Assembly (NCBI GenBank): GCA_021779195.1
Contig: JAJYBB010000003.1
Span: 1-64,000, forward strand
Source: Bacteroidota bacterium
GTDB taxonomy: Bacteria; Bacteroidota; Bacteroidia; Bacteroidales; Paludibacteraceae
Length of the DNA: 64,000 nucleotides
Direction: 5' to 3'
The translations under genes were made by a program, and so were the position numbers. Below, in pieces: positions 14,488 through 61,370 of the stretch (its first letter is position 1; every line of letters begins with the position of its first letter). Below the pieces are notes generated by a model. It made no database searches. It was not told where the DNA came from and saw only the letters and a list, made by a program, of their open reading frames with translations.

Positions 14488-14924
14488 CGAAGCGTAACTT
14501 GGACTGGAAACCAAAGCAGTTTGCAACTGATTATAAAAGTTATAAACTTTTCTGATTTCCAGCACAAGTCTCCGTTTCACTCAGACTTGCGCTAGACACC
14601 CACTGCAACTGTACAGACTTGGACGAAGAAGCGGATAATTATAGATTATTTGGGTTTCCAGTTCAAAATACACTTCGTTAATCCTGAACTATGCAGCAAG
14701 TGAATGCTTGGAATAAATGGAGAATTAATAAAAATACAATATATTTTCAATTGATATTGAACTGGACTATTTTCATATAGAACTCTCGTTAAAAAACAGT
14801 AAAATAATTAACGAAGGTATAATTATGTCATTAACTTAATTATATTTGCAAATAAAATCATACCCTGTCGTACCGGAGCTAGACACCCACTGCAACTGTA
14901 CAGACTTGGACGAAGAAGCGGACT
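14442..14924. repeat. Repeat-rich scar with inverted repeats and a 45-bp direct repeat
   Basis: Two copies of an exact 45-bp sequence (14591-14635 and 14878-14922) begin GCTAGACACCCACTGCAACT and end GACGAAGAAGCGGA. They are 287 bp apart. Before the first copy are palindromes: AGTTCAAGTT/AACTTGGACT (14475-14505) and GCACAAGTCT/AGACTTGCGC (14562-14592). The heptamer CAAGTCT or its complement occurs at least five times. The stretch is noncoding, interrupts one gene at its left and touches a gene tail at its right. It resembles REP/BIME-type or Rhs-linked repeat DNA of Bacteroidetes and probably formed by recombination between dispersed copies. Confidence 0.6.
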
Positions 14925-15146
14925 GAGCCTTTAAAATTTGAGCTTAGTTTGGAGAAAGGAAAGTTTGATGATGGGACAACCAAAAGATCCTTTTCTTATT
15001 CTGATATTCAAGTGGATAACTTACATGTTAAATGGGACGATATTTCAACAGATACTGCTTATAATGCAAAAATTAACTATATATCGCCGGTTTCTCCGAA
15101 TATTTTTTCTGGAATAAATTTCAAAGCCGCTTACACATTTAAATAA
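14925..15146 (+). pseudogene. C-terminal fragment of a paralogue of the next two genes
   Basis: A frame without its own start emerges from the 45-bp repeat (EPLKFELSLEKGKF...) and ends INYISPVSPNIFSGINFKAAYTFK-like. The 257-residue protein at 15806 ends with almost the same residues (YLSPVSPNLFQGINIKAAYTFK), so this is the tail of a third family member whose front was removed at the repeat. It may still be transcribed with the following gene 4 bp downstream but has no signal peptide. Confidence 0.65.
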
Positions 15147-15150
15147 ATAT

Positions 15151-15798
15151 ATGACAAAACACATCGTCTCAACTCTAATATTATTTGCAGTTATCTTGCA
15201 CACTTCTGCCCAAAAAGAAGTCTATTTTGCAGATAAATCCCGTGATTCAATCGCTATATCAGCTGTTCAGGGCATTCAGGTTGGTGCTACATTGTCATCT
15301 GGTTTTAATGGTTTAAATGTGCCTGTAAGTATTGGATATTTTAATGAATTAAAGTTAGGTAGTACAACAAGTCTTATTTTATCGGGCGATATTAGCATGG
15401 TAAAAGCCACGAAGAGTGTTACTATTACCTATATAACCAATGATTATGGCACTTATCCTGTTTCAAATATTGTTTATGAAACAGCTTTAAAATTAGATAT
15501 AAAAGCAGAACCAAGATGGTATTTTAATTATAAAAACCGATATATGAAAGGTAATAATATCAAACTAAATTCAGGTTTCTTTTTGAGTTTGCCTTGTGAA
15601 ATATCCACTAATCCATTAACGAAGGTTTATCCATTTCAGCTTAATTTATCGACTGCGGCATCATTCGGATTTCGTTATGCACTTACAAAAAATTTCTTCA
15701 TTGAACCCGCAGCTAATTTAGGCATTGGTTTATACAATTTTAGATCTCTTTCTACATTAACTCCATATTTAAGTCTTAAAGCCGCTTACACATTATAA
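15151..15798 (+). CDS. Putative outer-membrane beta-barrel-like protein, paralogue 1
   Basis: 215 residues with a signal peptide (IVSTLILFAVILHTSAQ). The mature start EVYFADKSRDSIAISAVQGIQVG matches that of the next gene. Amphipathic strands such as FNELKLGSTTSLILSGDI, LDIKAEPRWYFNYKNRY and FGFRYALTKNFFIEPAANLGIGL suggest a small eight-stranded barrel, and the final residues form a barrel-like closing strand. It has about 40 fewer residues than its neighbour and ends in AAYTL rather than AAYTFK. It lies 7 bp before paralogue 2. Family and function are unknown. Confidence 0.65.
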   Translation: MTKHIVSTLILFAVILHTSAQKEVYFADKSRDSIAISAVQGIQVGATLSSGFNGLNVPVSIGYFNELKLGSTTSLILSGDISMVKATKSVTITYITNDYGTYPVSNIVYETALKLDIKAEPRWYFNYKNRYMKGNNIKLNSGFFLSLPCEISTNPLTKVYPFQLNLSTAASFGFRYALTKNFFIEPAANLGIGLYNFRSLSTLTPYLSLKAAYTL

Positions 15799-15805
15799 TA
15801 AATGT

Positions 15806-16579
15806 ATGACTAAACATATCCTTGCAATTCTATTATTATTGTTATTTACAATAGCTTTGCGCATCTCTGCTCAAAAAGAAATTTATTTTTCCTCTACTCC
15901 TAAAGATTCTATTAAAGTTGAATCAATACGTGGAGTCGAAATTGAATCAGGGATGAATACCTCTAAATTGTTTAATACATCCTCTCATGATAAATCGTTT
16001 ACTATTCCTTTATATATGGGTTATTTCAATGAGAAACGCATTGCTCCAAGCTGGACATTAATTGCCCGGATTGGATTGAGTAATAATTTTATGAATAGTG
16101 CCCATTATGTTCTTGTTAAAGATTCAATGCAAATGAATGGCCCAATATATTATTACAATACTACAAAAGTTGATTATTATAAATTTGAATATCAGCTTAA
16201 TTTAGGTATTAGTATTGAACCGCGTTGGTATTTTGGTTATAAAAACCGGTATCAGAGTGGGAAAACAAAACTTAATTCCGGTTGGTTTTTATCATTTCCG
16301 CTTTCAGTCTCCACATTACTTATAAACACCTATAAACCCGAAGTTCCACCTGGATATACCACCTATTATCAAGACTATAAAAGCTATTGTTCTTTCGGAC
16401 TTTACGGCCATTTAGGCTATCGTCAGGCTATCTCCAAACAATGGTTTTTGGAAGGTGATGTTGCGATTTTGGGGATAGAATCAGGTCTGTTTAGTTATAA
16501 AAAACAATTATATCTATCGCCGGTTTCTCCAAACCTTTTTCAGGGAATAAATATTAAAGCAGCCTACACATTTAAATAA
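15806..16579 (+). CDS. Putative outer-membrane beta-barrel-like protein, paralogue 2
   Basis: 257 residues with a signal peptide ending RISAQ. It shares with paralogue 1 the mature start (KEIYFSSTPKDSIKVESIRG), the central EPRWYFGYKNRY block, LNSGWFLSFPLSVST, and the terminal strand. Tyrosine- and tryptophan-rich alternating strands point to an outer-membrane barrel of about eight to ten strands. The gene is packed between paralogue 1 (7 bp) and the DUF4249 lipoprotein (7 bp), implying co-transcription with the TonB receptor pair. The role is unknown; an accessory barrel for the receptor is one possibility. Confidence 0.65.
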   Translation: MTKHILAILLLLLFTIALRISAQKEIYFSSTPKDSIKVESIRGVEIESGMNTSKLFNTSSHDKSFTIPLYMGYFNEKRIAPSWTLIARIGLSNNFMNSAHYVLVKDSMQMNGPIYYYNTTKVDYYKFEYQLNLGISIEPRWYFGYKNRYQSGKTKLNSGWFLSFPLSVSTLLINTYKPEVPPGYTTYYQDYKSYCSFGLYGHLGYRQAISKQWFLEGDVAILGIESGLFSYKKQLYLSPVSPNLFQGINIKAAYTFK

Positions 16580-16586
16580 TAATTCA

Positions 16587-17447
16587 ATGATTATTAAATC
16601 CGAAAAACTCACCTTTTTTTTATTGTTGATTATTTTACTGTCTTCGTGTGCTAACTCGATGATTGAAAATGCGCCCTGGAATAACACGCCGGTTCCGGTG
16701 GTTTTTTCTGTTATTTCGCCGAATGAACCTGTTCAGGTGTATTTAAACAAAACGTATAGCCAGAACTCTCCGGCTGTCAAAAATCCATACCCAGAGGCAC
16801 AGGTATATATGTGCGGACCCGATAATAACTGGATAAAACTGACCCGTTTATCGCCTGATACCTGTATTTTTGAAGATAGTCAGAAACAGTTGATCGTTGA
16901 AAAAGGGAAAACCTACTCGTTAAAGGTTGAATTGAGCGACCGGACTGTTTATGCTCAAACCACGGTTGTTCCTGAACCCGCGCTTATTATCGACGCCAAT
17001 TGTATCCTGACAGGTGATAGCGATATCAGAAATATATTTGATTCTCAACGGTATGATACTTTATTAGTCAATAATCTATCTATTAAATACTCACCTCCGG
17101 GAAATAAGGACTGTGAATACTTATTCTCTGCCAATTCTGAACAAATTTATGGAACAAGGTTTCCGAATCAAGGGAGTTTTCAGTCAACTGATTTCGGAAC
17201 ACCAAAAGATTCTACTTCCTTTACATTAGAATTAACCACTGTAGATCCTTATTATAAAAAGTATTTGGACGCAGAATCTATTAATTCACTTTCAAATAAT
17301 TATAGTAATAATTCTCCCATTTTGGCATTGATTCAGTCATTTGGAGGAGTATTGCCACAATTCTCCAATATCGTGAATGGCGTAGGGCTATTTGGAAATA
17401 CGGTGACGGATAGAAAACGAATAACAATTAAGCCCTTAGCAAAATAA
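16587..17447 (+). CDS. DUF4249 lipoprotein, partner of the TonB-dependent receptor
   Basis: 286 residues. The signal ends in ILLSSC (Cys21). The mature protein shows the DUF4249 pattern: PVVFSVISPNEPVQVYLNKTY, then YPEAQVYMCGPD and GKTYSLKVELSDRTVYAQTTVVP, with Ig-like strands. DUF4249 genes regularly stand next to TonB-dependent receptors in Bacteroidetes, and the product is believed to sit at the outer membrane as a surface component of the uptake machine. The stop is 1 bp before the receptor start codon, which indicates tight coupling. The substrate is not apparent. Confidence 0.82.
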   Translation: MIIKSEKLTFFLLLIILLSSCANSMIENAPWNNTPVPVVFSVISPNEPVQVYLNKTYSQNSPAVKNPYPEAQVYMCGPDNNWIKLTRLSPDTCIFEDSQKQLIVEKGKTYSLKVELSDRTVYAQTTVVPEPALIIDANCILTGDSDIRNIFDSQRYDTLLVNNLSIKYSPPGNKDCEYLFSANSEQIYGTRFPNQGSFQSTDFGTPKDSTSFTLELTTVDPYYKKYLDAESINSLSNNYSNNSPILALIQSFGGVLPQFSNIVNGVGLFGNTVTDRKRITIKPLAK

Positions 17448-52600: not shown

Positions 52601-53517
52601 CGCTTGGATTAGTTTGGGCAGAACCCCGAATTGTAGACATTTCAAAATACCTGAAAATGAAAAATAATTTATTGGAAATTGATGTGACCAATACCTGGAA
52701 CAACCGATTGGTGGGCGATGCAACTTTGCCAATTGACAAACGGTTGACAAGTGCAACTACTTCGCCCGATGCCAATGCACCTTTGATGCCATCCGGTTTA
52801 ATTGGTCCGGTTGTTTTCCAGATTACCGACCCTGATCCCTATGTTCAAAAAGTGGATATTTCGGTAAATAAACCAGTCATTTTAAAACCTGAAAAAGCAT
52901 TGGTAACGATGGAAACTTTGAACCGAAATGCTAAAATATATTACACTATCGATGGCTCAATTCCTACAGAAAAGTCGACTTTATATTCAACTCCGTTTTA
53001 TTTATCGGAATATTCCCTGATAAAAGCAAGAGCATTTCAAAAAGGGAAAAAGTCGAGTGAAATATCACAATTCGAATTGGAAGCTTTTGACCCTAAAATG
53101 AACAGCTTTAATTACGAATACTTTGAGGGCGAATGGACTAAACTTCCCAACTTTGACAAGATGACACCTCTAAAAAAGGGGACAACAATTACGCTCGATC
53201 CCTCAAAACTAAAAAATCGAGAGGACCATTTTGGATTAAAATTTTATGGGTCAATTAGTCTGCCGACTTCAGGTGATTATACGTTTTATCTACTTTCCGA
53301 CGATGGAAGCAAGTTATATATTGATGGAAAACTAATCATTGATAATGATGGCTGTCATGGAGACCTGGAAAAATCAGGAAACACTCAACTTGCTGAAGGA
53401 AAACACGAAATCAGGATAGATTATTTTGATAATATTAACGGGGAGAGTCTTCAATTATTTTATGGTTTGAGAGGTTCAAAAAAGGAAATTCCCATGCGGT
53501 GGTTCACTCATGAATAA
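49609..53517 (+). CDS. GH106 alpha-L-rhamnosidase-like enzyme 1, with CHB_HEX_C and PA14 tail
   Basis: 1302 residues with a signal peptide ending near GKAQ. The GH106 catalytic region (about 30-880) has KPWVYWYWMSDNISKEGI, IGVFNSPGWSQSGGPWNKPD, VVADSYETGAQNWTDN, LKLWLENYGHWGYPGEF and SESFTSSGPMWYW. A galactose-binding-like domain (about 920-1070) follows, with GTWTVYFDKKWGAPDSAVF and IKYYSGTARY. Residues about 1087-1155 are a chitobiase-type CHB_HEX_C domain (AKIYYTIDGSIPTEKS) and about 1165-1300 a PA14 domain (YTFYLLSDDGSKLYIDG). GH106 enzymes remove L-rhamnose with inversion, as in rhamnogalacturonan. The C-terminal domains are probably for binding. Confidence 0.88.
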   Translation: MNRLSIKLFIAIIFWGSFNTGKAQNSDSLSFNFKNPPATTKPWVYWYWMSDNISKEGITKDLEAMAKVGIGEAMIGNIDQIAQKGTVKALTEEWWQMIEFAIREGKRTGVNIGVFNSPGWSQSGGPWNKPDNSMRYLTMSELKVKGPQKFTVKLHQPTDQFQDVAVIAYRKPLDDTDYLSTTNSSITCSPEIGDIKSWFDGKQSLEIYLPASPANSFSLNFKQTQPYTARSLTLYPSHTGFSAKCELQFKQSDGSFKTAKTFTIERTNNSTNVGFLPFAPICETFAAASSTQFRLIFSDINGKAGFTGISLSAAARTERYIEKQLAKLWPTPAPQWDAYLWKRQTEINNNALVINPQNELNLSSKMKSDGTMEWDVPAGEWIIERIGMTPTGQKNVPASVEATGLEVDKMNSKWVARHFDAYIGEILRRMPASERTAFKTVVADSYETGAQNWTDNLATDFEKQYGYDPIPYLPVINGRVVGNADLSDRFLWDLRRMIADRISYQYVGTLREKSNENGLKLWLENYGHWGYPGEFLQYGGQTNEVSGEFWTGDTNDLGSIELRAASSAAHGYGKNIVHSESFTSSGPMWYWSPWSLKKRGDWAATQGINHFILHVYIHQPYDNKIPGINAWFGVEFNRLNTWFFQSKEWIDYLRRTHYLLQQGKYVADVAYFIGEDAPKMTGIRNPKLPDGYDFDFVNAEVVEKMVIKDGRIVLPDGMSYRVLVLPPLTTMRPAFLAKLKQLIADGGIVVGPAPTQSPSLQNYPQCDRQVKKMAKEIWQTCDGVNVKKIHFGKGTVYNGLTLTAIFNDLKIIPDIGNIDANSFPWIHRSAADAEIYYISNQTDQTATCFPAFRVKGLQPELWDPVTKEQRDLPNFRIENEKTIVPLEFAPRQSLFIVFRKKVTTSGKDPINFVRKKTIGELSGTWTVYFDKKWGAPDSAVFDTLEDWTKRSEIGIKYYSGTARYKKVFDAPACNFETPVYLNLGALNSLAVVKLNGQSLGLVWAEPRIVDISKYLKMKNNLLEIDVTNTWNNRLVGDATLPIDKRLTSATTSPDANAPLMPSGLIGPVVFQITDPDPYVQKVDISVNKPVILKPEKALVTMETLNRNAKIYYTIDGSIPTEKSTLYSTPFYLSEYSLIKARAFQKGKKSSEISQFELEAFDPKMNSFNYEYFEGEWTKLPNFDKMTPLKKGTTITLDPSKLKNREDHFGLKFYGSISLPTSGDYTFYLLSDDGSKLYIDGKLIIDNDGCHGDLEKSGNTQLAEGKHEIRIDYFDNINGESLQLFYGLRGSKKEIPMRWFTHE

Positions 53518-53551: not shown

Positions 53552-54851
53552 CATTGCTGTCCACTTAAAATAAGCTGAGTGATAGCTGGTTATAATTTTG
53601 TTCTTTGACATCACTGGTATCTATATTGGTAAATAGCTCATTCATAGGAGTTTTATCTAAAAGAGAAATTCCTAATATTTGTAAAATTTCGTAGGTTGTA
53701 CGGTCTATTTGTAAATCGTGTCCCACAATGGCAACCAGACAATATGCGATAATTGCACAATATATTTGTATTCTAACGGCATTTTCAGATGTTCCCCAAA
53801 AGGATTTGATCTTAAGATGCTGTTTGATCCATTTGAAGAACAGTTCTATTTGCCAACGGTTTTTATAAAGCAATGCTATTTGAGCTGCCGAGAGTTCAAA
53901 GTTATTTGTCAGGAATATGAATGTTCTGTTCATATCCTTGTCATAATAAGCAATTCTTCGAAGTTTATCCGGATAATATTTTGAGGGGTAATACCCTTTC
54001 AAGAGTCCAGTTTGATCAGATAATACTCCGGTAGATTCATCTACATCGTTGGAAGCTGTCACTTCAAACTGAAGATTCTTTTTGGCTCTCACCACAAAGT
54101 ACGAATCCAGTTGCGTAATCTTATAAAGTCGGGTAAAGTCAACGTATCCTCTATCGAAGATATAGTAAGCACCCACCTCGTATGGGATTACATCCATTGC
54201 ATTCATATCGTTCACCGTAGCTGTTGTAATATGCAAGAAAGCAGGAATTTGTGTAGTAATATCATAAAGCGTGTGGATCTTTATTCCACCTTTGTGCTTT
54301 CTGAATTTAGCCCACCAAAATACTGACAGACACAAATCGATTGTCGTTGAATCGAAAGCGTAAACTTTACCTTTTATCTCAAAATCATTGTGGCTTCGCT
54401 TTTGTCTGGCAACATCAATCAGGTAATAGGCAAATTCCTCAAAGATTCTGCAATCCCGATTCTCGTTTGCTTTTGAAAGATTACTGCGGGTAACGCTTTT
54501 GCCGAAACCAAGATGGTAACTTTTCTTACTGTGAGCATCAATTGCCACAATAAGATCACGCAAACTATCACGGTTAGTCAGTTGACCGAAAATCATCACC
54601 AGAAGTTGATTCCAACAAGTAAAATGTTTTACATATTTGTTGCCATTGTACTTCATAACAAGATTATCGAATAGCCACTGTGGTAAAAACTCAACGATTT
54701 GCGCATACACATATTTGCCTTTATTCATTGTTCCTAAATTTAATAAGGAACAAAAATATATTTTCAAATCGTCACCTGTAAATTTTATTCGTAAAATATA
54801 GAATATCAGCTATTTCAAAGAACGTTTATTCGTTTTTAGTGGACACTAATG
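53552..54851 (-). mobile_element. IS4-family insertion sequence, complete, 1300 bp
   Basis: The ends are imperfect inverted repeats: CATTGCTGTCCACT on the left (53552-53565) and the complement of CATTAGTGTCCACT on the right (54838-54851). A 9-bp target duplication ATATTTTTC is present on both sides. The single gene is an intact transposase read right to left. Full ends, full gene and perfect duplication indicate recent insertion, splitting the enzyme operon between GH106 and GH127. Confidence 0.9.
53565..54728 (-). CDS. IS4-family DDE transposase
   Basis: 387 residues from the ATG at 54728 (an earlier in-frame start 13 codons upstream lies close to the right terminal repeat). An N-terminal region of the DUF4372 type (YAQIVEFLPQWLFDNLVMKY) is followed by the catalytic core: Asp126 in YAFDSTTIDL, Asp192 in YYIFDRGYVDF, and the IS4 signature Y-x2-R-x3-E-x6-K (Y288, R291, E295, K302) in YKNRWQIELFFKWIKQHLK. 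The enzyme cuts and pastes its element. No frameshift is visible, so the copy may be active. Confidence 0.93.
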   Translation of the reverse strand: MNKGKYVYAQIVEFLPQWLFDNLVMKYNGNKYVKHFTCWNQLLVMIFGQLTNRDSLRDLIVAIDAHSKKSYHLGFGKSVTRSNLSKANENRDCRIFEEFAYYLIDVARQKRSHNDFEIKGKVYAFDSTTIDLCLSVFWWAKFRKHKGGIKIHTLYDITTQIPAFLHITTATVNDMNAMDVIPYEVGAYYIFDRGYVDFTRLYKITQLDSYFVVRAKKNLQFEVTASNDVDESTGVLSDQTGLLKGYYPSKYYPDKLRRIAYYDKDMNRTFIFLTNNFELSAAQIALLYKNRWQIELFFKWIKQHLKIKSFWGTSENAVRIQIYCAIIAYCLVAIVGHDLQIDRTTYEILQILGISLLDKTPMNELFTNIDTSDVKEQNYNQLSLSLF

Positions 54852-54865: not shown

Positions 54866-55123
54866 ATAAAATGAAACCCACATGATAATAAATTGACGCC
54901 AGAGAGAATGAAAATTTGGCGCAAACAGGCCGGACTTTAGTAATTAGAAGTTTTGTATTTTTTGTAGCATAAGCTACAACATAAAACAAAACAATAATGG
55001 AAACACCTCAAATATCCTTTAAGCAAGTCGTATCGCGTGGATGCGGACTTTATGTACACAAGAAAATACAATATTTAAATAAAAATCAGGCGTTTCGCCT
55101 TAATATTAACAAATAATTTACGT
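54866..55123 (+). repeat. IS110-derived leader repeat, copy A (before GH127)
   Basis: 258-bp sequence repeated upstream of the second GH106 (57455-57710), about 85% identical by eye. It ends at the start codon of GH127. Inside, 54997-55116 encodes METPQISFKQVVSRGCGLYV followed by HKKI, the N terminus of an IS110-family transposase (normally GCGLDVHK); the catalytic Asp is Tyr in this copy. The rest of the transposase is missing: after HKKI comes a short hairpin (AGGCG-TTT-CGCCT). Before the ATG two stems are visible: TTGACGCC/GGCGCAA (54893-54924, one bulge) and TTGTAGC/GCTACAA (54962-54979). IS110 elements can carry a guide (bridge) RNA in this upstream region, so a structured RNA relic is possible. 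Confidence 0.65.
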
Positions 55124-57430
55124 ATGAAAAACTTTAATTTAAAATTCTTTTATATTTTGTTTTTTTTCTGTTTTATTTTGCAGACTTCTTCCGGGAAAAG
55201 TCATGCCTTAAAAGCAATTCCATTTTCATTAAAGGATGTAAAGCTTACTGAAGGTGCTTTTCTGAAATCAGAACAATTAAACGAAAAGTGGTTGAAAGAA
55301 ATCAACCCGGATGCCCTTCTGAGTGGTTATAGAACAGAGGCCGGTTTGACACCAAAAGCTCCTAAATATGGTGGTTGGGAGTCTAGTGGTTTGTCAGGTC
55401 ACTCGCTAGGTCATTATCTTTCAGCACTGTCACTCACGTATGCATCTACTGGCGATACTTTATATAAAAACCGGATTATCTACATTGCAAAAGAGCTTGC
55501 CGAATGCCAAAAATCAAATAAAAATGGTTTTATAGCTGGTTTTCCAAATGCCAACAAAGTGATGAACCAAATATCGAAGGGTGAAATTCAATCCACGCCA
55601 TTTGATATTAATGGGGCATGGGTACCTTATTATAACTTGCATAAATTGTTTGCAGGACTAATTGATGCCTATAATTACACGCATAATTCAGAAGTTAAAT
55701 CTGTTCTGTTGAAATTCAGTAACTGGTTTTACGATGTGCATAAAAACCTTTCCGACATTCAGATTCAAACAATATTAACCTGTGAACCCGGTGGAATTAA
55801 TGATGCGCTCATGGATATTTATGATATTACCGGCGATAAAAAATTCCTTCAGTTGTCATTTCGGTTTAATCACAAAGCTATTCTTGATCCACTATCAAAA
55901 AACATTGATAGCTTAGATGGAAAACATGCGAATACTCAGATTCCCAAAATCATTGGTGTAGCTAAACAATATCTTGCTACAAATAACGACACTTTATGGA
56001 AAATTGCAAACTTCTTTTATAATGAGGTTGTTCATAAACACAGTTATTGCATAGGAGGGAATAGCTCTTATGAGTATTTTGGAATACCTGGACAATTACA
56101 GGATCGCATTACGGATGGTACCTGCGAAACTTGCAATACATACAATATGCTCAAGTTAAATAAGTTGTTGTTTGAGATCAACCCGTCATCTGAATTAGGT
56201 GACTTCTACGAATTAGCATTGTTCAATCACATCCATGCTTCTCAAAATCCGGAAACAGGTATGTTTCTGTACTTTTCCCCATTGAAAACCGGCAGTCAAA
56301 AAACAGATCATAACGGATTTAGTTCCAAATTCAATTCATTTTGGTGCTGTGTTGGAACCGGCTGGGAAAGCCAAAGTAAATACAACGATGCCATTTATTT
56401 CAAAACTCCCAAAGGAGATCTAATAGTCAATCTGTTTGTTCCCAGTAAGTTAAACTGGAAAGAGAAAGACCTTATTGTCGAACAAAAGACATCTTTCCCC
56501 GAGTCGGACGAAACAGAATTAAAGTTAACCATGCGTACAGCAAAAAGAATGAGTTTATTGTTCAGAATGCCGTCATGGACAAATCAAAATAGCAAAATCT
56601 TTGTCAATGGAAAAATGGTCAAAACAACAATTGGTGAAGGAAAATTCCTGTCAATTAATAGATTGTGGAAAAATAATGATGTTGTTCGTTATGTTGTTCC
56701 AATGCAAATTACTTCAAAATCTATTCCCGGAGATGAAAATCAGAAAGCATTAATGTATGGCCCAATAGTTCTTTCAGCACAATTGAAAAATAAAGAATAT
56801 GGTGTTTTGTTATGCAATGATTCAATCGAAAAACATATTGTTCAACAGTCAAGTCATCCATTGAGATTCTTGACCCAAAACATTGGGGAGCCATCCGATT
56901 ATCAACTATTACCATATAGTGAAAATTTTGGAAAACTGGCAGTTTATTTTAAAGTGTTTACAAAGGATAATTGGGCAGTTGTAAAAGGATCGTTCCTGCT
57001 TAAAAATAATATTCAGGAGTATCTCGAAAAAAACACCATTGATCTGCTTCGTTTGGGTGAAATGCAGCCCGAGAGAGATCATAATTTTAGAGGTGAAAAT
57101 CTGTTAGTTGGTGAGCGAATGGGCAAGAAAATACGAGAAACTAAAAAAGACGGTTGGATGGAATTTAATCTGAATGTCAATCCTGAAGGGTCTAACCATT
57201 TGAGAGCTTCATTTTATGGAAATAACGGAAGTAGGGTGTTTGATATTTTTATTGAAAACCAACTGATAACTACCGAAGTAATTCATTGGATGGGTAATAC
57301 CTTCATTGACAAGGAATACGACATTCCACAAAGCCTAACAAATGGGAAAAAGAGTATTACCGTTAAATTTGTTTCCAAAGGAGACGGGCTTGTAGCTCCG
57401 GTTACCGAGGTTAGGACATTAAAGTATTAA
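55124..57430 (+). CDS. GH127 beta-L-arabinofuranosidase-like enzyme
   Basis: 768 residues with a signal peptide ending near TSSGKS. The (alpha/alpha)6 barrel of GH127 (formerly DUF1680) is recognisable from VKLTEGAFLKSEQLN, LSGHSLGHYLSALSLTYAST, INGAWVPYYNLHKLFAGLID and CEPGGINDALMDIYDITGD. The zinc-thiolate catalytic residues are in place: Glu335 and Cys337 in CETCNTYNMLKL, Cys408 and Cys409 in SFWCCVGTG, with the same pattern as HypBA1. The C-terminal beta domains end VAPVTEVRTLKY. The predicted role is removal of terminal beta-L-arabinofuranose in the periplasm. Related DUF1680 families with other specificities exist. Its leader is the IS110-derived repeat. Confidence 0.9.
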   Translation: MKNFNLKFFYILFFFCFILQTSSGKSHALKAIPFSLKDVKLTEGAFLKSEQLNEKWLKEINPDALLSGYRTEAGLTPKAPKYGGWESSGLSGHSLGHYLSALSLTYASTGDTLYKNRIIYIAKELAECQKSNKNGFIAGFPNANKVMNQISKGEIQSTPFDINGAWVPYYNLHKLFAGLIDAYNYTHNSEVKSVLLKFSNWFYDVHKNLSDIQIQTILTCEPGGINDALMDIYDITGDKKFLQLSFRFNHKAILDPLSKNIDSLDGKHANTQIPKIIGVAKQYLATNNDTLWKIANFFYNEVVHKHSYCIGGNSSYEYFGIPGQLQDRITDGTCETCNTYNMLKLNKLLFEINPSSELGDFYELALFNHIHASQNPETGMFLYFSPLKTGSQKTDHNGFSSKFNSFWCCVGTGWESQSKYNDAIYFKTPKGDLIVNLFVPSKLNWKEKDLIVEQKTSFPESDETELKLTMRTAKRMSLLFRMPSWTNQNSKIFVNGKMVKTTIGEGKFLSINRLWKNNDVVRYVVPMQITSKSIPGDENQKALMYGPIVLSAQLKNKEYGVLLCNDSIEKHIVQQSSHPLRFLTQNIGEPSDYQLLPYSENFGKLAVYFKVFTKDNWAVVKGSFLLKNNIQEYLEKNTIDLLRLGEMQPERDHNFRGENLLVGERMGKKIRETKKDGWMEFNLNVNPEGSNHLRASFYGNNGSRVFDIFIENQLITTEVIHWMGNTFIDKEYDIPQSLTNGKKSITVKFVSKGDGLVAPVTEVRTLKY

Positions 57431-57454
57431 AGAAATATCCCTAAAAAATATTTG

Positions 57455-57710
57455 ATAAAATGAAATTCACATGATAATAAATTGACGCCCGAGAGAATTA
57501 TAATTTGCCGCAAGCAGACCGGATTTTAGCAATTAGAAGTTTCTTTTTTGCGGAATTAGCCACAACATAAAACAAAACAATACTGGAAGTGCCTCAAAAA
57601 TCCTTTAAGCAAGTCGTATCTCGTGGATGCGGACTTGATGTACACAAGAAAATACAGATTTTTTAATAAAAACGAGGCGTTTAGCCTTATTATAAACAAA
57701 TAATTTACGT
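57455..57710 (+). repeat. IS110-derived leader repeat, copy B (before second GH106)
   Basis: 256-bp partner of copy A, ending at the GTG start of the second GH106. The transposase fragment (57583-57666) has CTG in place of ATG, encodes EVPQKSFKQVVSRGCGLDVH then KKI, and retains the catalytic Asp of the IS110 DVHK motif. It stops at 57664-57666. The truncation point and the following AGGCG-like hairpin are the same as in copy A, so the deletion predates the duplication. Confidence 0.65.
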
Positions 57711-60700
57711 GTGAAAAAATATTTTTTAATTTCATTTTTCATTTTAATATTGACATTTAATAGTCAGGCTATAAACCAGATTTCACAAATTAAAACAAAT
57801 TTCGAATGTCCTGGTAATGACTATAAACCATGGGTTTATTGGTATGTGATGGATGGATATCTAAATAAAGAAGGTATTACTGCTGATCTTGAAGCCATGG
57901 CAAAAGTTGGTATCGGTGGCTTTATTTTGATGGAAGTAAATCTGGGAGAGAAACCGGGAAAAACTAAATTTATGAGTCCGGAGTGGCGTGATTGTTTTCA
58001 GCATGTATTGAATGAAGCTGAACGGTTGAAATTGCAGATGGCTCTTGGGTCAGGCCCTGGTTGGGCAGGTAGTGGCGGACCCTGGATAAAAGCAGATCAG
58101 TCAATGTTACAGTTGATTTCATCGAAAATAAATGTAAAAGGAAAGGTGGATGTTCTACTTCCAAAACCAACTCCCGAAGTACCCTATTTTGGTATGGAAA
58201 GTTTAAATGAGGAAATGAAAAAGGAACGAGCCGATTATTATCAGGATGTTTGTGTATTGGCATTTCCGAAGATGGATTCCATCCCTCAAATTTCCGATAT
58301 AAAAGAAAAGGCGCTCTATATTCGTAAACCGTACTCTTCAACGAATGGATCAAAACCTTTATTGAAATTTTCAACTATAGATAATGAATCAAAAACTACC
58401 GGACTTCAAATGAAACAAATGATTGATGTTTCTAAATTTATGCAACCTGATGGCCGTTTAGTTTGGACAGCTCCTGCTGGTGAGTGGACAATTTTCCGTT
58501 TTGGAACGGCTACTACAGCCGCTAATACACGTCCGGCACCAATACCGGGTTATGGTTTCGAATGCAGCAAACTTGACACTTCGGCATTGAATTATCATTT
58601 AGATAATTATATCAATAAGCTAATAAAGGATTCGGGTACAAAAATTTCAGATACAAGACGTTCTGTTGGTTGGAATATGCTTCATATTGACAGTTGGGAA
58701 ATGGGATCCCAAAATTGGAGTCATAATTTTGCTGCCGAGTTTAAGAAACGCAGAGGATATGATATTGAGCCTTTTTTGCCTGTTTACAGCGGATTTGTTG
58801 TATCTAATAAAAAAATAAGCGAACGATTTTTGTGGGATATGCGAATCACAGCTCAAGACCTCTTGCTGGAAAATCACGCCATTCATTTGCGGAAAATTGC
58901 GCATGAACATGGTTTTGGTTTATCAATTGAACCGTATGATATGAATCCGACTTCTGATCTTGCGCTTGGGGCAATAGCTGATGTTCCTCAATGTGAGTTT
59001 TGGGCAGAAAAACAAGGATTTAATACGACTTTCAGTTGTTTCGAAGCCACTTCTATCGCTCATACCTGTAATAAAAATATTGTAGCGGCTGAGGCTTTCA
59101 CAACGAATTGGGGTAATACCCCATGGTCAAGAACTCCTGCTAATTTAAAAGATCAAGTCGACTGGGTTTTTGCTGCTGGAATTAATCGAATTATTGTTCA
59201 CCGTTATGCTTTTCAACCCTGGAAAGACAAATTTCCAGGAATGACGATGGGACAATACGGCATTCAGTATGAACGAACCCAAACTTGGTGGAACTTTACG
59301 ATTGAATGGCATGATTACATTACCCGTTGTCAATATCTTTTACGACAAGGGAAACCGGTAGCAGATATCCTTTTCTTAAATCCGGAAGGTGCCCCAACCG
59401 TATTTGAACCACCGGTTTCGGCTTGTACCGGGAATTCGTGGATGCCTGACAAAAAAGGGTACAGTTTTGATGGTTGCGATCCAATTAATTTAATCGAAAA
59501 TGCCGATGTAAAAAATGGGAAAATCATTTTTCCGGGAGGCATAGAATACCGGATACTCGTTTTGCCTACTACTGAATACATGACTCCAAATTTATTGCAG
59601 AAAATCAATACTTTAATTGAAAAAGGAGCAACTGTAATGGGATTTGCACCCAAATATTCACCCAGTCTGACAGATTATCCGCATTGTGATGAAGAAGTCT
59701 GGAATCTTGCCCAAAAAATGTGGGGAAACGACCCCTTACCTAAAAAGATTGGGAAAGGAATGCTTTACCCTTGTACTGCTATCGACACATTAAATTTATT
59801 GCCTAACTTTCAAAGTGATGGAAAAAATCTTTTCAAAGGTTTTATTCCTCCTTTTGTGAAATATAGTTCAATTGAAGCAGTATTAAAGAAATTAAATATT
59901 AAAGAAGACTTCAAATGCGATAATGCTTTCAGGTATATACATCGAAAATTGGAAAAGGGTGATATTTATTTTGTTTCAAATACGAAAAACACTTCTGAAA
60001 ACGGAATCTGTACATTTCGTACCAAAGGCAATGTGAGCTTTCTGAATCCCATTGACGGAAAAGAATATCAGGCTGAAGTACTTACACAAACCGGTGAAAC
60101 CACAACAGTTAAAATTCCATTGGAAGGGAATGGTTCTGTTTTCGTATTATTCAAAAAAGGAATTTCATTGTTTCCCAAAAGGTTGCCTGTTCTGCCATTT
60201 CACATGAAATCAATTTTAAAAGTTAATTCAAAATGGACAGTTAGTTTTGATAAAAAATGGGGAGGTCCCGAAGAAGTGGTGTTCGATTCATTGAAAGATT
60301 GGTCGTTATCCGATAACTTGGGAATTAAATATTACAGTGGGACAGCAAAATATAAAACAACTATCAAATTAAATTCCCAACAGATTCAGGGAAGAACATT
60401 TATTGATTTAGGGAATGTCCAAGTGATGGCTCGCGTCAAAATAAATGGAAAAGAATTGGGTGTTGCATGGTGTTCACCGTACCGCGTTGAGACTACAGGC
60501 TGTTGGAATGAAGGAGATAATACCGTTGAAATAGAAGTAGTTAATCTCTGGATAAATAGACTGATTGGAGACCAGACCTTGCCAGAAGATAAAAGATTTA
60601 CCTGGAGTACATGGATGCCATTTAAAAAAACAGATAAACTTGTTCGTTCCGGTCTTCTTGGACCGGTTACAATACAAGTTATTGACGACAAACCCTATGT

Positions 60701-61370
60701 CTCAAAACCAATCATTTCAGTTGATAAAACTTTTATTGTCAAACCCGATACGGTTACGTTATCAGTCGGTTGTTCTACCGAAAATGCTGAAATTCATTAT
60801 ACATTGAATGGAACAACACCTACTGAAAATTCGCCAATTTACAACACTCCGTTGAAAATCAACGATTACGCCAATATTGCTGTAAAAGCATTTAAAAACA
60901 ACTTCGAAAGCAGTGATGAGGCAAATGTGTTAATTGATGGTTATGACCCTAAAGTGAACGGCTTAAATTACGAATATTTTGAGGGCGAATGGACTAAAAT
61001 TCCTGACTTTGACAAGATGACACCTCTAAAAAAGGGGACAACAATTACGCTCGATCCGTCAAAACTAAAGAATCGCGAAGACCATTTTGGATTAAAATTT
61101 TATGGGTCAATTAGTCTGGCGACTTCAGGTGATTATACATTTTATCTGCTTTCCGACGATGGAAGTAAATTATATATTGATGGAAAACCGATCGTTGATA
61201 ATGATGGCTGTCATGGAGACCTGGAAAAATCAGGAAACACTCAACTTGCTAAAGGGAAACACGAAATCAGGATAGATTATTTTGATAATATCAATGGTGA
61301 AAGTCTTCAATTATTTTACAGTTTGACAGGTTCAAAAGAAGAGATTCCGTTGCGTTTGATGAAATATTAA
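57711..61370 (+). CDS. GH106 alpha-L-rhamnosidase-like enzyme 2, with CHB_HEX_C and PA14 tail
   Basis: 1219 residues with a GTG start and signal peptide ending near NSQA. The catalytic region (about 25-830) shows KPWVYWYVMDGYLNKEGI, MALGSGPGWAGSGGPWIKAD, HIDSWEMGSQNWSHN, LSIEPYDMNPTSDLALG and AAEAFTTNWGNTPW. The galactose-binding-like domain (KWTVSFDKKWGGPEEVVF), CHB_HEX_C (about 1000-1070, AEIHYTLNGTTPTENS) and PA14 (about 1081-1219) follow as in enzyme 1. The two share architecture but the catalytic parts differ strongly, so they may cut different rhamnosyl linkages. The PA14 part is almost identical in DNA. The second GH30 follows after 14 bp. Confidence 0.88.
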   Translation: MKKYFLISFFILILTFNSQAINQISQIKTNFECPGNDYKPWVYWYVMDGYLNKEGITADLEAMAKVGIGGFILMEVNLGEKPGKTKFMSPEWRDCFQHVLNEAERLKLQMALGSGPGWAGSGGPWIKADQSMLQLISSKINVKGKVDVLLPKPTPEVPYFGMESLNEEMKKERADYYQDVCVLAFPKMDSIPQISDIKEKALYIRKPYSSTNGSKPLLKFSTIDNESKTTGLQMKQMIDVSKFMQPDGRLVWTAPAGEWTIFRFGTATTAANTRPAPIPGYGFECSKLDTSALNYHLDNYINKLIKDSGTKISDTRRSVGWNMLHIDSWEMGSQNWSHNFAAEFKKRRGYDIEPFLPVYSGFVVSNKKISERFLWDMRITAQDLLLENHAIHLRKIAHEHGFGLSIEPYDMNPTSDLALGAIADVPQCEFWAEKQGFNTTFSCFEATSIAHTCNKNIVAAEAFTTNWGNTPWSRTPANLKDQVDWVFAAGINRIIVHRYAFQPWKDKFPGMTMGQYGIQYERTQTWWNFTIEWHDYITRCQYLLRQGKPVADILFLNPEGAPTVFEPPVSACTGNSWMPDKKGYSFDGCDPINLIENADVKNGKIIFPGGIEYRILVLPTTEYMTPNLLQKINTLIEKGATVMGFAPKYSPSLTDYPHCDEEVWNLAQKMWGNDPLPKKIGKGMLYPCTAIDTLNLLPNFQSDGKNLFKGFIPPFVKYSSIEAVLKKLNIKEDFKCDNAFRYIHRKLEKGDIYFVSNTKNTSENGICTFRTKGNVSFLNPIDGKEYQAEVLTQTGETTTVKIPLEGNGSVFVLFKKGISLFPKRLPVLPFHMKSILKVNSKWTVSFDKKWGGPEEVVFDSLKDWSLSDNLGIKYYSGTAKYKTTIKLNSQQIQGRTFIDLGNVQVMARVKINGKELGVAWCSPYRVETTGCWNEGDNTVEIEVVNLWINRLIGDQTLPEDKRFTWSTWMPFKKTDKLVRSGLLGPVTIQVIDDKPYVSKPIISVDKTFIVKPDTVTLSVGCSTENAEIHYTLNGTTPTENSPIYNTPLKINDYANIAVKAFKNNFESSDEANVLIDGYDPKVNGLNYEYFEGEWTKIPDFDKMTPLKKGTTITLDPSKLKNREDHFGLKFYGSISLATSGDYTFYLLSDDGSKLYIDGKPIVDNDGCHGDLEKSGNTQLAKGKHEIRIDYFDNINGESLQLFYSLTGSKEEIPLRLMKY

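Follow-up and report, generated by a model that had tools for sequence, protein, structure and literature searches.

Why do two copies of one sequence end exactly at the start codons of two genes that encode different glycosidases? The question is raised by a 64,000-nucleotide stretch of a Bacteroidota bacterium of the family Paludibacteraceae (assembly GCA_021779195.1, contig JAJYBB010000003.1, positions 1 to 64,000; hereafter the window), in which the two copies, A and B, precede a GH127 and a GH106 gene, respectively. A first-pass annotation, made from the sequence alone, had regarded them as non-autonomous derivatives of an insertion sequence (IS) of the IS110 family, but it gave no reason for their ending at start codons. 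The reason is that the start codon is the insertion target. Comparison with related genomes makes it very probable that A and B derive, as non-autonomous remnants, from an IS110-family lineage whose insertions fall on ATGAAA start codons in Bacteroidales and is most likely guided by RNA.

Copies A and B and their full-length relatives

The two units are direct repeats (54866-55123 and 57455-57712) with 87% identity over the whole unit (BLAST, E 7.7e-85), and a repeat search resolves blocks D2, D4 and D6 within them at 80-86% identity each. The repeat pair of the first-pass annotation was thus recovered, and its right limits stand, copy A abutting the ATG at 55124 and copy B the GTG at 57711, whereas the left limits have to be moved five bases inward, to the ATGAAA at 54871 and 57460. 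So delimited by the repeats, by BLAST within the window's own genome and by alignment with five full-length elements, copy A occupies 54871-55123 and copy B 57460-57710, both on the forward strand. Each opens with an ATGAAA target copy (54871-54876 and 57460-57465) that is constant across elements, the flanks upstream of it being variable, and continues through the left end and about 24 codons of a transposase. Each closes with the last ~54 bp of the right end (55070-55123 and 57657-57710, from alignment with right ends of relatives, L037-L042 in the case of copy A), which finishes in TTTACGT and in copy A holds a hairpin at about 55088-55100. The deletion junction between transposase codon ~24 and the right end falls in an A/T-rich overlap and was placed by eye in the alignment, at 55063-55070 in copy A and at the same place in copy B (57649-57656); the right-end block that follows is the same in both, and the shared truncation point and small hairpin had been noted correctly.

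Relative to the full-length elements, which measure roughly 1.7 kb, about 1.4 kb is missing from A and B. Both encode the peptide KQVVSRGCGL(D/Y)VHKKI, followed by the A/T-rich block. The Asp of the GLDVHK motif is present in copy B and in the five aligned full-length relatives and has become Tyr in copy A, as the first-pass annotation had it, while the transposase ATG is CTG in copy B. Transposase coding capacity is lost in both, and since the candidate guide RNA described below is missing as well, neither copy could move by itself.

Miniature inverted-repeat transposable elements (MITEs) and other internal-deletion IS derivatives are short, keep both ends, have lost the transposase and occur in multiple copies. 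A and B share these features, in agreement with the MITE-like origin proposed earlier: both ends are kept, the coding region between them is gone, and there is more than one copy. They differ in that their ends are not inverted repeats and in that the derivative forms a leader at start codons.

The parent elements that the annotation had suggested looking for were found in related genomes. Of 300 genomes of the family searched at the DNA level, 11 gave matches, the window's own genome being one of them, and among the matches listed none in other genomes passes query position 197 of 258, which is the deletion point. Full-length elements were read at L010/L037, L009/L041, L011/L039, L038 (Tangfeifania diversioriginum) and L042, L010 being interrupted by a frameshift and L009 and L039 containing stops (by eye). 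The proteins of L038 and L010 score above the cut-offs of DEDD_Tnp_IS110 (PF01548), Transposase_20 (PF02371) and NF033542 ('IS110 family RNA-guided transposase'), which establishes the IS110-family source. In addition, the C-terminal part of the translation of L010:1631-2587 weakly resembles NF052498, a TIGR-Tas endonuclease model, with a score below the cut-off (E 0.00088). Searches of a plasmid collection and, with the transposase as query, of viral contigs gave no match.

Within the window's own genome, four further left ends and five exact right ends (TATTTACGT-ATGAAA) were found, every one of them at a contig end, as expected of a multi-copy element collapsed by assembly. In a tree of 12 left ends, A and B group apart from the rest with 99% ultrafast bootstrap, with branch lengths of 0.03 for copy A and 0.11 for copy B. 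The captured start codon at left ends often opens a four-codon open reading frame (ORF), ATG AAA NNN NCA TGA, as at 54871-54885 of the window (ATG AAA CCC ACA TGA) and in L038, L040, L048, L174 and L183; it may be either a minicistron or merely a conserved CATGA binding site.

Two further arrangements of elements were seen among the relatives. In L051 (~1000-1450), at least two ~200-bp units starting ATGAAACCCTCATGCACTATCG, with right-end-like sequence before the next ATGAAA, lie upstream of a full element and are possibly further mini-derivatives in tandem. In L125 (~100-160) a right end is followed immediately by a left end (ATGAAACCTCCATGG), an arrangement like that of tandem copies or of a circle junction.

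Insertion at start codons

Wherever the ends can be read, an ATGAAA comes directly after the left flank, and a second one follows the right end, which reads TTTACGT or a lineage variant of it; the exceptions after the right end are GTGAAA once (copy B) and ATGAAC once (L133). The full-length relatives run in the same direction as the adjoining gene. In most cases ATGAAA flanks the element at either end and an intact ORF begins directly behind its right end. Elements adjoin genes that read as dcp-, elongation-factor- and phosphoglycerate-kinase-like. An element placed at the start codon therefore leaves the protein whole and exchanges the leader upstream.

Of 46 non-tandem right ends, 35 begin an ORF that either has 50 codons or more or stays open as far as the contig end, as against 29 of the 98 ATGAAA sites of the window (Fisher P 1.6e-7), a control set that includes internal methionines. 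The right ends, originally 47, comprise those anchored on the conserved 3' region, those of the window's own genome and the window sites, and loci repeating one insertion were merged by a 40-base flank. The script scored 34 gene starts; L022 was then counted as a further one (the locus ends after 14 open codons, and the same insertion in L136 opens 290), and the tandem case L125 was set aside. Fifteen further RNA-like places without a right end from the motif list lie outside the count; some of them look spurious, and others, such as L119 and L054, do show an ATGAAA right end. Two of the 11 right ends that open no such ORF lie near a likely start by eye, at 8 nt (L150) and 5 nt (L053).

In multi-copy families the element boundary is fixed independently of ORFs. 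All five exact right ends of the window's own genome are at starts, the ORF opening at the first codon (75 codons in one case; in the others it has at least 457 or runs on to the end of the locus) and reading as a small membrane protein, a dcp-like lipoprotein, two other exported proteins and a SurA-like protein. In G349, for which seven of eight copies were fetched, five of six non-tandem copies are at starts; in G170 three of five are, and a fourth is 8 nt from a likely start.

One insertion could be compared with its empty site. In blastn, the left flank L006 (contig C20, which reads as ribF-like) has matches upstream of a dcp-like gene in 12 relatives' loci, and the right flank L076 (contig C26) is that same dcp-like gene; the other three left flanks of this genome had no blastn match among those loci. 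Out of 19 relatives' loci 17 were usable, L202 being cut by a contig end and the start in L204 not being placed. Their uninterrupted starts read ATGAAA in 16 cases and ATGAAG in one, and TATCTTTG, which we take to be the Bacteroidetes -7 box (consensus TAnnTTTG), lies upstream in all 17 and in L006. The comparison therefore places the insertion between the promoter/5' untranslated region and the ORF, with ATGAAA on both sides. For the GH127 gene itself, the closest ortholog found has 48% identity, too little to tell the exact site.

A candidate guide RNA downstream of the transposase

In the full-length relatives the transposase gene is followed by non-coding DNA with a conserved 3' region; in L010/L037 and L009/L041 the non-coding DNA measures ~290 nt after and ~130 nt before the gene. 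RNAalifold gives 21 consensus pairs over 11 sequences. Two-sided changes occur in three of these pairs, the CAGCTAAG/CTTAGCTG stem included, and two loop strands of the RNA read NN-ATGAAA. This region looks like a bridge/seek RNA, of ~130 nt. In the second, or donor, loop the NN equals the right-end dinucleotide before ATGAAA in 20 of 28 distinct RNAs (20,000 shuffles: mean 5.3, maximum 15), and the matched dinucleotides vary, with GT, GG, AG, AT, AC and TG all present. In the first, or target, loop, 14 of 16 elements have the same base in front of ATGAAA as stands on the left side of the insertion (shuffle mean 4.9, maximum 13). A stricter set without L051, L053 and L140, whose flanks resemble another element's right end, gives 11 of 13 (mean 4.7, P 0.0003), and 10 of 12 once L039 is also dropped; L117 had been left out of the 16, its left flank being the right end of another element. 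The donor-loop right ends were chosen by ORF: at least L141, L142, L143 and L118 look mis-picked and were kept, and the pick in L117 is doubtful, both candidate sites giving AG. Agreements of this kind are what has been described for the left guides of bridge RNAs, donor and target alike (PMC11208160). Moreover, the U-rich strand of the first loop (TTTTTTC) could pair with the GAAAAAA of lysine-rich starts.

Matches to the model of this RNA (R1) were found in at least 21 of 393 genomes of the order, at least 11 of 300 of the family and at least one of 395 at phylum level, the counts being lower bounds as the first pass scores few candidates per genome. At the sole phylum-level match, right end L184 opens just 44 codons (by eye). 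No Rfam family matched the guide region at its gathering score in the five loci tested. In L053 (~2840-2915) GTGAAA stands both in the donor loop and at the right end, 5 nt ahead of a gene that starts ATGAAA, so that a variant core is matched by a change in the loop. In L039 (~1140-1215, the same as L011) an element sits at an ATGAAA inside the apparent guide RNA region of another copy, a case of self-targeting.

The first-pass annotation had suggested that the leader itself might encode a bridge RNA. This is not borne out, because both copies have lost the 3' region that holds the candidate; R1 has no match in them and reaches only chance level elsewhere in the window (14983-15059, E 1.5), and Rfam matches there are far below gathering scores. 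Of the two stems it had seen, both are predicted in the left end of copy A (~54893-54923 and ~54949-54993, forward strand; z -2.5) and neither in copy B (z +1.7). Their support in relatives is weak (9 pairs, -2.3 kcal/mol), and a conserved attenuator was rejected for that reason.

These observations are consistent with a circular form of the element, with the junction TTTACGT-ATGAAA-CCCACATG, that would recombine with a genomic ATGAAA selected by the bridge/seek RNA. The deletion would have happened a single time, and the derivative would have reached its second start codon in the cluster through movement in trans or through copying. At its new site the A/T-rich right end would serve as a translatable leader, replacing the 5' leader of the gene and leaving the protein undamaged. 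Such an end can act as a leader because Bacteroidetes generally lack Shine-Dalgarno sequences (PMC3155529).

Several points speak against this interpretation. The list of right-end motifs was composed after the data had been seen, and no ORF as long as 50 codons begins at 11 of the 46 right ends. In the window's own genome, the right-end pattern with up to two mismatches occurs at 47 places as against 33 for the backwards pattern, no clear enrichment, for which reason only the five exact right ends were used. The body of the element is unassembled there: neither the PF01548 profile nor the candidate guide RNA model finds a match in that genome. As regards the RNA, agreement over three bases is weak (donor 6 of 28, target 4 of 13), the match of target and guide is broken in L042 and L116, and the shuffles ignore relatedness, so that true significance is lower than they indicate. 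A right donor guide was not recognised in a look by eye, no systematic search for it having been made. Finally, sub-terminal inverted repeats were not found in an ungapped comparison of 13 end pairs (11 elements and the two window copies, 45 bases each), the best observed score being reached by 9 of 60 shuffles, and for this reason membership of IS1111 proper is not claimed for the lineage.

Alternative explanations

The element may recognise ATGAAA in an A-rich context and nothing more, hitting starts because ATGAAA is common there in the A/T-rich Bacteroidales. We give this reading, which is compatible with our account of the window copies, slightly less than an even chance. The guide-like loops themselves contain ATGAAA, the eleven right ends without a gene and the insertion of L039/L011 into an apparent RNA region fit it, and L133 is joined to an ORF starting ATGAAC. 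The excess of gene starts at right ends over ATGAAA sites at large argues against it, though part of the excess could be due to selection against insertions that are disruptive.

A bolder reading would be that the guide of the lineage is set to the start codon itself, as ATGAAA with an A-rich flank, and that its short derivatives spread as leaders that can be carried from gene to gene, in the present case to those of two secreted carbohydrate-active enzymes, taking advantage of translation free of Shine-Dalgarno sequences. This we put forward tentatively, as less likely than not.

With regard to the origin of the second unit, one junction at two start codons is best accounted for by a single deletion event and subsequent movement in trans. 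Local copying inside the cluster, by duplication or gene conversion, is less likely, although it has evidence of its own. A and B share the junction and are sisters in the left-end tree, a third copy with this junction was not found in the window's own genome or, among the matches listed, in the 300 family genomes, and local exchange seems to occur nearby, where two GH106 genes share a 300-bp block. Against it, the genes on either side of A and of B differ, and both copies end at element boundaries, as transposition gives. The ungapped repeat D6 (80% identity overall) extends 35 bases into both A/T-rich gene starts, which could be due to chance or to exchange.

A role of the leaders, kept as promoter or 5' leader of the two enzyme genes, would be a functional addition to the transposition account and seems to us less likely than not. 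Both genes are open and start immediately after the unit, and copy A has its predicted stems and a short branch, whereas copy B has a longer branch and no predicted stems. A scan for sigma-70-type promoters found 12 where 13.0 were expected, a type that does not cover Bacteroidetes promoters. The copies may simply be tolerated spacers within an operon. That they are ancient promoters of a duplicated gene, without mobile origin, as the annotation itself had considered, can be dismissed: the downstream genes belong to different families and full-length IS110 elements share both ends.

Host genes and neighbouring features

The target of copy A is a GH127 beta-L-arabinofuranosidase gene (55124-57430, forward strand; ORF, Pfam PF07944) that starts ATGAAA and encodes a signal-peptide-like N-terminus. 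Copy B precedes a GH106 alpha-L-rhamnosidase gene with a PA14 domain (57711-61370, forward strand; ORF, Pfam PF17132) that starts GTGAAA, and 29 nt separate the GH127 stop from the start of copy B. With insertions discounted, copy A occupies an intergenic gap of ~44 nt. In the same gap, 19 bp upstream of copy A, lies an IS4-family element (53552-54851, reverse strand; NF033592, DUF4372 and DDE_Tnp_1) with an exact 9-bp target duplication, ATATTTTTC, and 19-bp imperfect inverted ends, a separate event from the unit.

The block shared by the two GH106 genes (D1; 53080-53379 and 60936-61235) is 93% identical over 300 bp and covers their C-terminal PA14 regions, whereas a second shared block near their starts (D5) has 75% identity only. 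The difference suggests recent gene conversion between the two genes. Elsewhere in the window, a perfect 45-bp direct repeat occurs at 14591-14635 and 14878-14922, 287 bp apart, with ~70-bp repeats near the pair at 15078-16618.

Relation to known elements and significance

Translation-initiation targeting has a precedent in IS900, an IS110-family element of Mycobacterium avium subsp. paratuberculosis. PMC8141618, which has a 1997 paper by Doran et al. among its references, gives the target motif of IS900 as CATGNNNNNNTCTCCTT and describes translation initiation signals as being targeted. We read that motif as a Shine-Dalgarno sequence plus start codon, whereas here it is the start codon plus the second codon, ATGAAA. 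In further contrast, ATGAAA here stands on both sides, the candidate guide RNA lies downstream of the transposase, and the phylum generally lacks Shine-Dalgarno sequences.

IS1111-type seekRNA elements (PMC11187229) resemble the lineage in a DEDD-type transposase, a longer downstream non-coding region, target specificity and fixed orientation. The lineage differs in targeting gene starts and in that no sub-terminal inverted repeats were found, those of the IS1111 group measuring 7-17 bp according to PMC11208160. The bridge RNA of IS621, described in the same paper, also has two loops, one matching the target and one the donor, with the shared core included. In our lineage, the candidate lies in the right and not the left non-coding end, and the right donor guide was not recognised by eye.

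That IS110-family elements, bridge or seek RNAs and varied targets exist is already known (PMC11208160; PMC11187229), and an IS110 insertion in the promoter region of pyrE is reported for Frankia (PMC11946415). In the open-access literature on IS110/IS1111 elements in connection with start codons, Bacteroidetes or MITEs, no report of this lineage was found. What appears to be new, on sequence comparison, is an IS110 lineage directed to start codons, with a downstream RNA and no sub-terminal repeats found, together with its deletion derivative.

The lineage would provide a natural case of RNA-guided recombination directed to a functional landmark of genes, the start codon, within a phylum with atypical translation start signals, and it makes testable whether the guide alone directs start-codon insertion. 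The guide region, with no Rfam family in the five loci, may interest builders of programmable recombinases. More generally, the lineage brings into view the question of how elements insert beside conserved genes without breaking them.

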